From positions 1 through 11,641 of the forward strand of contig JAFGPU010000553.1 in assembly GCA_016936035.1 (NCBI GenBank): a DNA stretch of 11,641 nt, written 5' to 3'. The notes beneath the pieces were generated by a model. That model saw only the letters and a list, made by a program, of their open reading frames with translations, was not told where the DNA came from and made no database searches. A program made the translations under genes and the position numbers. This document shows, in pieces, positions 5,063 to 8,711 of the stretch (the first letter of the stretch is position 1; every line of letters starts with the position of its first letter). This DNA is from Acidimicrobiales bacterium (lineage in GTDB: Bacteria; Actinomycetota; Acidimicrobiia; Acidimicrobiales; VFJN01).

Positions 5063-5545
5063 ATGGACGCGTCCGAGCCGCTCGTGGCCCCCGAGGGAGA
5101 CACCTGGCTGGGATTGTCGTCCGCGCCACTCCCCGTGACCGAGGCGGTGTCGTGGGCCGGCCGGCCCGACTGTGGTGGGGTGGTCCTGTTCTCGGGCACG
5201 GCCCGAGACCACGCCGAGGGGCGCCCCGGCGTCGAGCAGCTCGAGTACGAGGCCTACGAGACCCAGGTCGTGCCGCGGCTGCGCGACGTGGCCGACGGTG
5301 CGCGCGCCCGGTGGCCCGAGGTCGGCCGCGTCGCCCTGCTGCACCGCACGGGGGTGCTGCAGGTGGGTGACAGCGCCGTGGTGGTCGTCGTCTCGGCGCC
5401 CCACCGGGCCGAGGCGTTCGAGGCCGCCCGGTTCTGCATCGACACCCTCAAGCGGTCGGTGCCCATCTGGAAGCGCGAGACCTGGGCCGACGGCGAGAGC
5501 TGGGGCCTCGAAGCACAACACATCGTCGACGTAGGAGCAGGGTGA
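5063..5545 (+). CDS. moaE: Molybdopterin synthase catalytic subunit MoaE
   Basis: Large subunit of molybdopterin synthase, which uses the thiocarboxylate of MoaD to put two sulfurs into precursor Z (cPMP), giving molybdopterin in the cytoplasm. At 160 residues it has family length. Signatures in order: GVVLFSGTARDHAEG (39-53), LEYEAYE (60-66), the core VALLHRTGVLQVGDSAVVVVVSA (90-112), then PHRAEAFEAARFCIDTLK (113-130) and VPIWKRE (133-139). H114-R115 and the two lysines K130 and K137 correspond to the conserved PHR and catalytic lysines (E. coli K119 and K126), so it should be active. It is first in a unit: 4 bp to the 60-aa gene, whose ribosome site lies within the end of moaE. No other molybdenum cofactor gene is in the window, so MoaD must be encoded elsewhere. 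The ATG at 5063 was chosen for its upstream TACCAT and the fit of the N terminus. Confidence 0.93.
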   Translation: MDASEPLVAPEGDTWLGLSSAPLPVTEAVSWAGRPDCGGVVLFSGTARDHAEGRPGVEQLEYEAYETQVVPRLRDVADGARARWPEVGRVALLHRTGVLQVGDSAVVVVVSAPHRAEAFEAARFCIDTLKRSVPIWKRETWADGESWGLEAQHIVDVGAG

Positions 5546-5738: not shown

Positions 5739-6740
5739 GTGTCCCGCGACCTCGCCATCGACCTGGGCACCGCGAACACGCTCGTCTACGAGCGGGGCCG
5801 GGGCATCGTGCTCAACGAGCCCACGGTCATCGCCCTCAACACCCGCACGCGCGAGGTGCTGGCCATGGGGCACGACGCCTGGCAGATGATCGGGCGCACC
5901 CCCAGCGACATCGTCGCCGAGCGGCCGCTGCGCCAGGGGGCCATCACCGACTTCGACGTGACCCAGCGCATGATCCGGCTGCTGTTGCACCGGGTGCGGG
6001 TGGGGCGCTTCAACCGGCCCCGCGTGGTGGTGTGCGTGCCGTCCGCCATCACCGAGGTCGAGCGGCGCGCCGTGGCCGAGGCCGCCCGCCGGGCCGGCGC
6101 CACCGACGCGTTCCTCATCGACCAGCCCATGGCGGCCGCCATCGGCTCGGGCCTGCCCATCCACGAGCCGATCGCCAACCTGGTCATCGACGTGGGCGGG
6201 GGCACGACCGAGACCGCGCTCATCTCGCTGGGCGGCGTCGTTGGCCTCGACGCCGTGCGGGTCGGCAGCTTCGACATCGACGCCGCCATCCAGTCGTACG
6301 TGCGCCGCGAGTACGGCATCGCCGTCGGCGAGCGCACCGCGGAAGAGATCAAGGTGGCCATCGGCACCGCCTGGCCGGTGCACGACGAGCTCAAGGCCGA
6401 GGTGCGGGGACGCGACCTCGCGTCGGGCCTGCCCAAGACCGTCATCCTCACGCCCGGAGAGATCCGCGAGGCCATCGACGACGTCATCGTCGAGATCGTC
6501 GACTCGGTCGTCGCCTGCCTGGGCAAGGCCCCGCCGGAGCTGGCGCACGACCTGATCAGCCAGGGCATGTACCTGGTGGGCGGTGGCGGCATGTTGGCGG
6601 GCCTCGACCAGCGCATCGCCCACGCCACCGAGATCGAGGTCCACCTCGTCGACAACGCCCTCGAGTCGGTCGTGCTCGGCGCCGGCCGCTGCATCGAGGA
6701 CCCGGCGGCGCTGCGGGTCGCGTTCCACGCCGGCCGGTAG
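5739..6740 (+). CDS. mreB: Rod shape-determining protein MreB (actin-like ATPase)
   Basis: Bacterial actin homologue that polymerises under the inner membrane on ATP and guides wall synthesis. At 333 residues it has typical length. Visible motifs: phosphate-1 loop DLAIDLGTANTLVY (4-17), 'GIVLNEPTVIAL' (22-33), connect/phosphate-2 region IDVGGGTTETALISLGGVV (150-168), DQPMAAAIGSGLP (128-140), and the adenosine motif MYLVGGGGMLAGLDQRI (277-293). The usual VGGD..D segment after phosphate-2 is VGSFDID here. The GTG at 5739 gives MSRDLAIDLG, the expected N terminus, 6 bp after the preceding stop. No mreC, mreD, rodA or pbp2 gene follows, unlike the usual mreBCD order. It may be an orphan paralogue or the other genes may lie elsewhere. 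Likely transcribed with moaE and the 60-aa gene. Confidence 0.93.
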   Translation: MSRDLAIDLGTANTLVYERGRGIVLNEPTVIALNTRTREVLAMGHDAWQMIGRTPSDIVAERPLRQGAITDFDVTQRMIRLLLHRVRVGRFNRPRVVVCVPSAITEVERRAVAEAARRAGATDAFLIDQPMAAAIGSGLPIHEPIANLVIDVGGGTTETALISLGGVVGLDAVRVGSFDIDAAIQSYVRREYGIAVGERTAEEIKVAIGTAWPVHDELKAEVRGRDLASGLPKTVILTPGEIREAIDDVIVEIVDSVVACLGKAPPELAHDLISQGMYLVGGGGMLAGLDQRIAHATEIEVHLVDNALESVVLGAGRCIEDPAALRVAFHAGR

Positions 6741-6804: not shown

Positions 6805-7827
6805 GTGTCGACCCCCGTTCCGGAGATGTCGGGCACCGCACCGATCGACGCCGCCCGGCAGGCGCTCGTCGACGAGCGGCGCCAGCTCACCCTCGACGAG
6901 CTCGCTGCGCTGGCAGCGCTCCCCGACGACGACGTTCCCGCCCTGGCCGACGCCGCCCACGCTGTGCGGGTGGCGTGGTGCGGCGACACCGTCGAGGTCG
7001 AGGGCATCCTGTCGGCCAAGACCGGCGGCTGCCCCGAGGACTGCCACTTCTGCTCGCAGTCGTCCCGGTTCGACACGACCGTCAAGGCGGTGCCCCTGCT
7101 CAGCCACGACGAGGTGCTGGCCGCCGCCCGTGAGACCGCCGAGCTGGGGGCGACCGAGTTCTGCCTCGTCTACGCGGTGCGGGGGCCGGACGAGCGGCTG
7201 ATGGCCCACCTCGAGGAGGTCGTGCCGTTGGTCCGCCGCGAGACCGGACTCGACGTGGCCGTCAGCGCCGGCATCCTCGACGAGGCACAGGCCCGCCGGC
7301 TCGAGGCCGTGGGCACCCACCGGTACAACCACAACCTCGAGACGGCCCGCTCCCACTTCGGCGAGGTCGTCACCACCCACACGTGGCAGGAGCGCTTCGC
7401 CACCTGCCAGCTCGTGCGCGAGCACGGCATGGAGCTGTGCTGCGGCGTGCTGCTCGGCATGGGCGAGACCGACGCCCAGCGCATCGAGCTGCTCGGCCAG
7501 CTGCGCGAGGTCGGCCCGGCCGAGGTGCCCGTGAACTTCCTCGACCCCCGGCCCGGCACCCCGCTGGCCGACCGCCCGCACGTGGCGGCCCTCGAGGCGA
7601 TCCGCTGGATCGCCCTGTTCCGGCTGGCACTGCCCGACGTGATCCTGCGCTACGCCGGGGGCCGCGAGGTCACCCTCGGCGACCTGCAGGAGATGGGCAT
7701 GCGGTCGGGCATCAACGCCCTCATCACGGGCAACTACCTGACGACGCTCGGGCGCTCGCCGCAGCAGGACGTGGTCATGCTCGAGGGGCTGAAGATGCCG
7801 ATCGGCTCGTTGTCCAAGGTCATCTGA
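6805..7827 (+). CDS. bioB: Biotin synthase BioB with substituted auxiliary-cluster cysteine
   Basis: Radical SAM enzyme that inserts sulfur into dethiobiotin to make biotin, taking the sulfur from an auxiliary cluster. 340 residues from the GTG at 6805. The [4Fe-4S] motif is C76-PED-C80-HF-C83 in GGCPEDCHFCSQ. Other family segments: GATEFCLVYAVRGPDERLM (C120, equal to E. coli C97), HRYNHNLETA, MELCCGVLLGMGET (C212 = E. coli C188, plus adjacent C213), NFLDPRPGTPL, and YAGGREVTLGD (R287 = E. coli R260). At the E. coli C128 position, where LEACMTLG is expected, the sequence is LDVAVSAG (149-156) with no cysteine. Remaining cysteines that could compensate are C59, C201 and C213. A longer open frame reaches into mreB, but the GTG with TAGCGT 8 nt upstream is the better start; ATG 6826 is possible. 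Followed 11 nt later by the bsaP-like gene. Confidence 0.95.
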   Translation: MSTPVPEMSGTAPIDAARQALVDERRQLTLDELAALAALPDDDVPALADAAHAVRVAWCGDTVEVEGILSAKTGGCPEDCHFCSQSSRFDTTVKAVPLLSHDEVLAAARETAELGATEFCLVYAVRGPDERLMAHLEEVVPLVRRETGLDVAVSAGILDEAQARRLEAVGTHRYNHNLETARSHFGEVVTTHTWQERFATCQLVREHGMELCCGVLLGMGETDAQRIELLGQLREVGPAEVPVNFLDPRPGTPLADRPHVAALEAIRWIALFRLALPDVILRYAGGREVTLGDLQEMGMRSGINALITGNYLTTLGRSPQQDVVMLEGLKMPIGSLSKVI

Positions 7828-7838
7828 GGCGTCGACCC

Positions 7839-8066
7839 GTGGCCGCACCCGGGTCGGGCAGCGACGAACGGCCCGGCGCCGGCGCGTTCTGCCCGGGGTG
7901 CGGCCGGCCAGGCTCGCGGTGTGGGGGGTGCGCCGACGCGTCCGATCCCTGGCGCCACTGCCCGGTCTGCGGTCGCTGGCTCGCCGTGCAGGTGCGGCCC
8001 ACGGGCTGGACCGCCACCTGCCGCGGCTGCGGTGCAGTGCACGACGGCACGCACCGCTCGAGCTGA
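7839..8066 (+). CDS. bsaP: Biotin synthase auxiliary protein BsaP-like, eight cysteines
   Basis: 75-residue cysteine-rich protein directly after bioB (11-nt gap; GAGG at 7826-7829, overlapping the bioB stop, is a possible ribosome site). Cysteines form four CxxC pairs: C18/C21, C28/C31, C41/C44 and C61/C64. The C-terminal half, HCPVCGRWLAVQVRPTGWTATC (40-61), matches what I recall of BsaP (Rv1590 of Mycobacterium tuberculosis), where the P.YCP.C...m.VQV.PTGW.A.C pattern is conserved. BsaP has been shown to be needed for mycobacterial BioB activity and is linked to bioB in many actinobacteria. Role here: accessory protein for BioB, probably in supplying or holding iron-sulfur, by family knowledge and synteny. 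The paired CxxC motifs would otherwise suggest a generic zinc ribbon, and I cannot exclude zinc as the ligand. The gene is easily missed because a longer frame starting inside bioB contains it. Confidence 0.85.
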   Translation: MAAPGSGSDERPGAGAFCPGCGRPGSRCGGCADASDPWRHCPVCGRWLAVQVRPTGWTATCRGCGAVHDGTHRSS

Positions 8067-8085: not shown

Positions 8086-8104
8086 GAGCCGGCGCTCCCG
8101 GCTC
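8086..8104. terminator. Stem-loop between convergent bsaP and flavodoxin genes
   Basis: GAGCCGG (8086-8092), CGCTC, CCGGCTC (8098-8104) form a perfect 7-bp GC-rich stem with a 5-nt loop. It sits in the 36-bp gap between convergent genes and overlaps the last bases of the minus-strand stop codon. It is a likely bidirectional terminator, although no U tract follows. Confidence 0.5.
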
Positions 8105-8711
8105 AGGCGGCCGCCACGTCGCGCGCGCTGCGGCCCCGACGCAGCTGTGCGGCCACGTCGGCGACACGATGGCCGAGGGCGCGGGCGGTGGCGAGGTCGG
8201 ACGGCCGGGGCGCGAGCTCGGGACCCTCGTCGCTGTTCGACTGCGCCATTGCGCCCAGCCAGCTGCCCAGTCGGTTGAGGTCGTCGGGCGACCCGGTGGT
8301 GCTGTCCCAACCTGCGTGCAGGCCGAGGTTGACCCAGTGCATGCCGTGCTGGGCGGCGAGGACAGCCAGGTCGACGAGCGTGTTGAGCTTGTCGCCGTTG
8401 ATGGTCTGGCTGTTGGTGAACCCGGCGGCCACCTTGTCCTTCCACCCGAGCCGGGCGTAGACGGGGGCGGTCGCCTCGGCGAACCGCTTGAAGCCGGCGG
8501 AGGGCGAGCCCATGTAGGTGGGCGTGCCGAACACGATGGCGTCGGCGGCGGCGAGCCCGTCCCACAGCTCGTCGTCGAGGTTGTCGACCGGCCACAGCCG
8601 GGAGGTGACGCCCGGTGAGGACTGCGCACCCTCGGCCACCGCCGTCGCCTGCCGGGCGGTGTGGCCGGTGCCGCTGTGGTAGGCGACGGCCACGGTGATG
8701 TCGTCGGTCAT
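8103..8711 (-). CDS. Flavodoxin-family (WrbA-like) FMN protein
   Basis: FMN-binding flavodoxin-fold protein of 202 residues, the size of WrbA-type NAD(P)H:quinone oxidoreductases. The phosphate-binding loop is near the N terminus: ITVAVAYHSGTGHTARQA with S13, T15, G16 and T18 in the S-x-T-G-x-T pattern. The second flavin loop is IVFGTPTYMGSPSAGFKRF, typical of WrbA/NAD(P)H dehydrogenase proteins. A third flavin-contacting loop is probably HWVNLGLHAGWDS. Expected role is two-electron reduction of quinones or other redox substrates in the cytoplasm; the exact substrate is unknown. The ATG at 8711 is preceded by AGGAG with 7-nt spacing (8719-8723), a good ribosome site. It is divergent from a TetR gene across 67 bp containing a dyad, so repression by that TetR is likely. 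The tail after about residue 165 is Arg/Ala-rich and less family-like. Confidence 0.88.
   Translation of the reverse strand: MTDDITVAVAYHSGTGHTARQATAVAEGAQSSPGVTSRLWPVDNLDDELWDGLAAADAIVFGTPTYMGSPSAGFKRFAEATAPVYARLGWKDKVAAGFTNSQTINGDKLNTLVDLAVLAAQHGMHWVNLGLHAGWDSTTGSPDDLNRLGSWLGAMAQSNSDEGPELAPRPSDLATARALGHRVADVAAQLRRGRSARDVAAA

Follow-up and report, generated by a model that had tools for sequence, protein, structure and literature searches.

The bioB–bsaP locus

Contig JAFGPU010000553.1 of the Acidimicrobiales bacterium assembly GCA_016936035.1, an 11,641-nucleotide (nt) stretch of DNA hereafter called the window, carries a biotin synthase gene, bioB (6805–7827, forward strand), and, starting with GTG at 7839 after a spacer of 11 nt that follows the bioB stop, the gene bsaP for a 75-residue biotin synthase auxiliary protein (7839–8066, forward strand). 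The original prediction held that this BioB lacks the counterpart of Escherichia coli C128, one of the four ligands (C97, C128, C188 and R260) of the auxiliary iron–sulfur cluster that donates sulfur to the product. Our alignments confirm that one of the four ligands is missing from the window BioB, and the residues that accompany the loss fit a published class of BsaP-dependent enzymes.

The gene starts with GTG at 6805, with ATG at 6826 as a possible alternative, and its product matches the BioB family TIGR00433 with 358.3 bits (cut-off 225). It contains the Pfam domains Radical_SAM and BATS, with the radical S-adenosylmethionine (SAM) motif CxxxCxxC formed by C76, C80 and C83 (7030–7053, forward strand). 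The predicted fold is nearest to solved BioBs by structure comparison (predicted local distance difference test, pLDDT, 82.7; predicted template modelling score, pTM, 0.86), with low confidence at residues 1–8, 74–84, 310–315 and 338–340. The window BsaP is the sole match to NF052237 in the source assembly (39.8 bits; cut-off 39), which comprises 3.2 Mb in 555 contigs, is 68% complete and also encodes BioA (434.6 bits; cut-off 405).

Auxiliary-cluster ligands in the window BioB

Alignment by phmmer to the E. coli structure 1r30 and by MAFFT to the K-12 gene alike places C128 opposite A152 (codon GCC, 7258–7260) and M129 opposite V153 (GTC, 7261–7263), with a cysteine at neither position. The two methods agree, and a misalignment or a wrong frame was rejected. 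The shifted cysteine of the ACSLG type, which many actinobacteria have one residue later, is missing as well, as had been predicted. The segment LDVAVSAG comprises residues 149–156 and nt 7249–7272; it had been placed at 7252–7275, a span that reads DVAVSAGI.

The remaining three ligands are present (all on the forward strand). C120 (7162–7164) is equivalent to C97, and C212, which lies beside C213 (7438–7443), is equivalent to C188, both as originally assigned. The arginine had been misidentified as R287, which aligns with E. coli R265; the equivalent of R260 is R282 (7648–7650), a position that is arginine in all 148 aligned rows. By the four-ligand definition of a type I enzyme, the window BioB therefore has C97, C188 and R260 equivalents and an alanine in the C128 column.

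Several further positions differ from E. coli. S43 is replaced by E66 (7000–7002), R95 by E118 (7156–7158), S218 by E240 (7522–7524) and Y149 by R173. Passages of Qu et al. 2024 (PMC11099021) report that BioB from Mycobacterium tuberculosis and M. smegmatis requires BsaP in vivo and in vitro, that Cys128 is replaced by Ala160 and Ala164 in the two enzymes, respectively, and that BsaP-dependent BioBs throughout have Glu for Ser43 and Ser218, Glu for Arg95 and Arg for Tyr149. All of these published marks are found in the window BioB (A152, E66, E240, E118 and R173). The suggestion that the enzyme might be a further variant special to its lineage is thus superseded, since loss of the C128 equivalent has been described for BsaP-dependent BioB in the same source. 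In the library searched, no paper joins biotin synthase with Acidimicrobi- names.

The window therefore resembles the mycobacterial system of BioB and BsaP (Rv1590) in its alanine at C128, its glutamates for S43, S218 and R95, its arginine for Y149 and the position of bsaP beside bioB, but has valine rather than cysteine after the alanine. It shares the radical-SAM motif, the C97, C188 and R260 equivalents and the fold with the type I enzyme of E. coli (1r30), in which C128, S43, R95, S218 and Y149 stand where the window has replacements, and from which it also differs by the adjacent bsaP. The closest solved structures by Z score are the BioBs of V. parvula (8vdw) and B. obeum (8vcw), which share the fold but have cysteines in both the C128 and S43 columns, where the window has A152 and E66. 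We take these two structures to be type II enzymes with a [4Fe–5S] cluster and the two cysteines to be presumptive marks of that type. ACSLG is presumably a mycobacterial motif; the same motif is seen here in genomes of family f37.

Fixation among relatives

The alanine was predicted to be fixed in a clade, and it is. Among 7,999 scored proteins, the 120 close relatives listed (80–90% identity to the window BioB) all have A152, followed by V (112), I (6) or L (2). We also collected genome loci with up to 3 kb of flank, the best 80 of 588, comprising 53 window-like and 27 more distant loci. With the window added to the window-like set (n = 54), column 152 is A in 52 and N in 2, and column 153 is V in 47, I in 5, A in 1 and L in 1, with no cysteine. 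In the 27 more distant loci column 152 is invariably A and column 153 is C in 24, A in 2 and L in 1. Asparagine in place of alanine in the C128 column occurs in L021, L029 and L127; in L029 and L127 BsaP is adjacent. Record labels of the 53 window-like loci include Acidimicrobi- names in 32 and Microthrix in 4; those labelled Thermoanaerobacterales, Acidobacteriota or Bifidobacterium look like misnamed bins.

Association with BsaP across the phylum

In a sample of 296 Actinomycetota genomes, BioB scores over its cut-off in 67 and BsaP in 34, all 34 lying within the 67; the window's genome is counted among both. Two genomes (G101 and G259) have weak, sub-cut-off BsaP matches and no BioB over cut-off. 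For the residue comparison we used 66 other BioBs, from 30 loci and 36 of 38 regions, after dropping two sub-threshold matches (L151 and L152) and, before counting, a duplicate of the window (L084) and two sub-threshold matches of its own genome (L002 and L003). ‘Without BsaP’ denotes no NF052237 match at E 0.001, and beyond the Actinomycetota sample the comparison covers E. coli and Protein Data Bank (PDB) rows only. Column 152 is A in 32 and N in 1 of the 33 BioBs with BsaP, and C in 31 and A in 2 of the 33 without.

BsaP also lies within the locus in 52 of the 54 window-like loci, window included; one window-like locus (L054) stops at a contig edge inside bioB. Among the more distant loci (L057–L083), the locus stretch itself holds BsaP in 8 of 27 (L065, L067, L068, L069, L072, L074, L076 and L077), and a ninth match, in L082, is at the locus edge.

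A quick tree, built from 85 rows out of the 148 with columns 152 and 153 removed, places all rows without cysteine at column 152 in one clade of 53 (Shimodaira–Hasegawa-like approximate likelihood ratio test support of 99), with a single change in that column. At the level of sequence, absence of the C128 equivalent is thus a trait of the class that changed once on this tree.

Which residues the class keeps

Column 153 behaves differently from column 152. It is C in 14, V in 12 and A in 7 of the 33 BsaP-associated rows, and the 53 class rows in the tree require at least six changes between cysteine and non-cysteine; the ACSLG cysteine is labile and dispensable within the class. Besides the radical-SAM cysteines, C120 and C212 are the only ones found in every one of the 33 rows. 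C213 is kept in 25, with Ser or Thr in the other 8; C201 in 17, with Leu in 16; and C59 in 25. Four of 116 class rows (L132, L139, L140 and L144) have no cysteine at any of columns 59, 152, 153, 154, 201 and 213, and two of them (L132 and L144, both BsaP-associated) have exactly five cysteines, at 76, 80, 83, 120 and 212, between residue columns 14 and 340, insertions included. Hence no third cysteine of BioB can serve as a ligand class-wide.

The glutamates are kept as strictly as the two cysteines: E66, E118 and E240 are each Glu in 33 of 33 BsaP-associated rows. In the 33 BioBs without BsaP, the E66 column is Asn in 18, Cys in 13 and Glu in 2, which marks it, judged from the alignment, as a site whose residue switches between enzyme classes. 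Class-wide, C120, C212 and R282 are all that is left of the E. coli set of four ligands, and Glu stands for Ser43, Arg95 and Ser218.

The BsaP protein and its fusions

The core of the window BsaP holds a putative metal motif, C41xxC44-x16-C61xxC64 (7959–8030, forward strand). We compared it with 92 BsaP matches, window included, collected by a profile started from the window BsaP, so that the counts describe what this profile finds. CxxC-x16-C is present in 91 of the 92; the remaining one (L005) ends before the second half. The residue three positions after the last core cysteine is His in 68, Cys in 20 and another residue in 3 of these 91. The BsaP core therefore usually offers four potential ligands, as against the three cysteines described. 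With an E limit of 1, a sequence search of BsaP among proteins of solved structure returned five weak matches, the best to ribosomal eL43 (E 0.0024).

Towards its N terminus the window BsaP carries further cysteines (C18, C21, C28 and C31), with an added CxxC element that is missing from ten f37 BsaPs collected here and also from G089 and L068. BioBs with C153 are paired with BsaPs that have the N-terminal CxxC in 9 cases and lack it in 11, and BioBs without C153 with BsaPs that have it in 70 and lack it in 1 (91 of 92 usable). This co-variation was discarded, because it is confounded by descent: ten of the eleven C153-associated BsaPs without CxxC belong to one family, f37.

BsaP domains are also joined to other proteins (P0121–P0164; 7 matches in one search and 38 in another); the sequence was inspected for seven of them and the motif region for the others. 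Many are acetyltransferase–BsaP proteins, as identified by Pfam accessions and source names; others are a methyltransferase–BsaP protein (P0139), a biotin carboxylase-like–BsaP protein (P0121) and a BsaP–aminotransferase protein (P0164, PF00202), the aminotransferase part of which we take to be BioA. The fusions to biotin-pathway proteins fit a role of BsaP in that pathway. Two proteins (P0140 and P0142) contain both BioB and BsaP domains. The BioB part of P0142 ends in what looks like a frameshift and the tail of P0140 is odd, so that both may be assembly artefacts. A model of P0140 (pLDDT 73.7; pTM 0.68) is fairly confident for the BsaP core and the greater part of BioB, and not for the linker and tail. 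BioB–BsaP fusions were found neither in 30 further loci, six of them without any BioB match, nor in 8 regions, one of which (G574) had been covered before as L172.

Neighbouring genes

Just upstream of bioB lies an MreB-like gene (5739–6740, forward strand; NF010539, 424.7 bits) that recurs in L004 (91% identity) and in none of the other 79 bioB loci. A further frame at 5063–5545 (forward strand), which we take to encode a MoaE-like molybdopterin synthase large subunit, likewise recurs among the 80 loci in L004 only. Convergent with bsaP, a flavodoxin/WrbA-like protein is encoded at 8103–8711 (reverse strand) and scores 67.7 bits, below the curated cut-off of 141. As a conserved electron donor it was rejected, since tblastn at E 1e-5 found no counterpart in any of the 80 loci, which include up to 3 kb of flank.

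How the donor cluster may be completed

We consider it probable that the window enzyme is a BsaP-associated, actinobacterial-type BioB whose auxiliary cluster rests on two cysteines and an arginine and is completed by a non-cysteine group or by BsaP. The enzyme would cleave SAM as usual, and an auxiliary cluster bound through the two cysteines and the arginine only would give up sulfur to dethiobiotin. Its fourth position would be taken either by BsaP or by a non-cysteine group, most likely E66 or E240. BsaP would dock on a glutamate-rich acidic patch, as passages of Qu et al. (PMC11099021) propose for mycobacteria, where it is suggested to bind a negatively charged patch close to the entrance to the cluster, and would complete, protect or rebuild the donor cluster, so that the enzyme would be inactive without it. 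Such dependence is published for the mycobacterial enzymes; for the window enzyme we infer it.

Several observations weigh against this reading. The window BsaP scores barely above its family cut-off and has no Pfam-A match at E 0.001, and the R173 mark is unspecific, with arginine also in 16 of the 33 BioBs without BsaP. The asparagine-bearing locus L021 shows no BsaP within its locus. Two genomes have A152 with no BsaP found. In the one-contig genome G016 neither the family model nor our profile finds one, the best profile match having E 0.08 and two stops inside; its BioB (L091) has A152 followed by C153, with E66 and E240 but Gln in the E118 column. In G040 the best profile match is weak (E 0.003 over 25 positions). 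A short frame with CPVC and CLGC motifs directly follows bioB there (L095, 1181–1564, reverse strand), without a Pfam match at E 0.001 and followed in turn by what is presumably a nadD-like gene; it perhaps encodes a diverged BsaP that NF052237 does not recognize. In the tree, G016 branches deepest within the class, on a branch flagged as long, and a warning about joined long branches applies elsewhere in that tree. Given this genome, the C128-equivalent cysteine may have been lost before BsaP arrived. The association of C128 loss with BsaP amounts to one event, with one independent pair in the tree, and is therefore not independent statistical evidence. A full Cys3His or Cys4 core may also leave BsaP no free cysteine to donate, and the clusters of the M. 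tuberculosis enzyme (BioB.tb) are able to form without BsaP, according to the same passages of PMC11099021, which counts against BsaP as a required ligand. Both points speak somewhat against a free BsaP cysteine simply being donated.

For the ligand itself, one tenable though tentative explanation is that a glutamate of BioB, E66 or E240, replaces the cysteine, with BsaP acting only as a supplier of electrons, iron or sulfide. The invariance of both glutamates in BsaP-associated BioBs (33 of 33 each) is consistent with this, as is the class-switching behaviour of the E66 column, where E. coli has Ser, 8vdw and 8vcw have Cys and the BioBs without BsaP mostly have Asn or Cys. A glutamate-ligated [2Fe–2S] cluster has a precedent in RsrR, as excerpts of PMC11138216 describe. 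The glutamates may instead form the docking surface for BsaP, along the lines of the patch proposed in PMC11099021.

That BsaP may supply the missing ligand had been proposed in the original prediction, and BsaP proves a serious candidate. We regard as rather doubtful a site shared by the two proteins, to which BsaP would directly give one of its cysteines or its metal centre. Rows without the C128 equivalent and rows with BsaP form almost the same clade, CxxC-x16-C is kept in all BsaP matches but the truncated one, a predicted fusion in PMC11099021 puts BsaP near the cluster, in the passages cited, and BioB and BsaP domains occur together in P0140 and P0142. Against this, 88 of 91 BsaP cores have a fourth Cys or His, as in a self-contained metal site, the BioB.tb clusters form without BsaP, and the frameshift-like end of P0142 and the odd tail of P0140 leave the two natural fusions open to being artefacts.

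It is unlikely that C213, C201 or C59 is the third ligand in the window's own lineage. The first two had been put forward as cysteines that may take over, and this fails class-wide, with C201 replaced by Leu in 16 and C213 by Ser or Thr in 8 of 33 rows, and with neither in four of 116 rows, which also lack C59 and C153. In the window's lineage the two are still candidates: among the 54 window-like loci, C201 is kept in 54, C213 in 52 and C59 in 42, and among the 120 relatives listed C201 and C59 are kept in 120 and C213 in 114.

A type II-like enzyme with a [4Fe–5S] auxiliary cluster is highly improbable, given that 8vdw and 8vcw keep a cysteine in the C128 column and have cysteine, not glutamate, in the E66 column; passages of PMC11099021 suggest a mechanism for BsaP-dependent enzymes unlike those of types I and II. 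A sequencing error, pseudogene or misalignment can practically be dismissed: the assembly is fragmented and 68% complete, but A152 recurs in all 120 relatives listed, the frame is open across the whole profile match and the two alignment methods concur.

Implications for the family

How BsaP enables these biotin synthases is left as a question in the cited passages of PMC11099021. We tentatively propose a third type of BioB, in which the donor cluster would rest on two cysteines and an arginine, with the remainder supplied by a carboxylate and/or BsaP, and would be shared, deliberately labile and rebuilt by BsaP at each turnover. What our comparison adds is that the ACSLG cysteine is dispensable and that BioBs with five cysteines occur naturally, which removes most candidates for a third ligand. 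E66, E240 and BsaP are left as candidates for the missing ligand, and the five-cysteine BioBs would provide clean models for spectroscopy.
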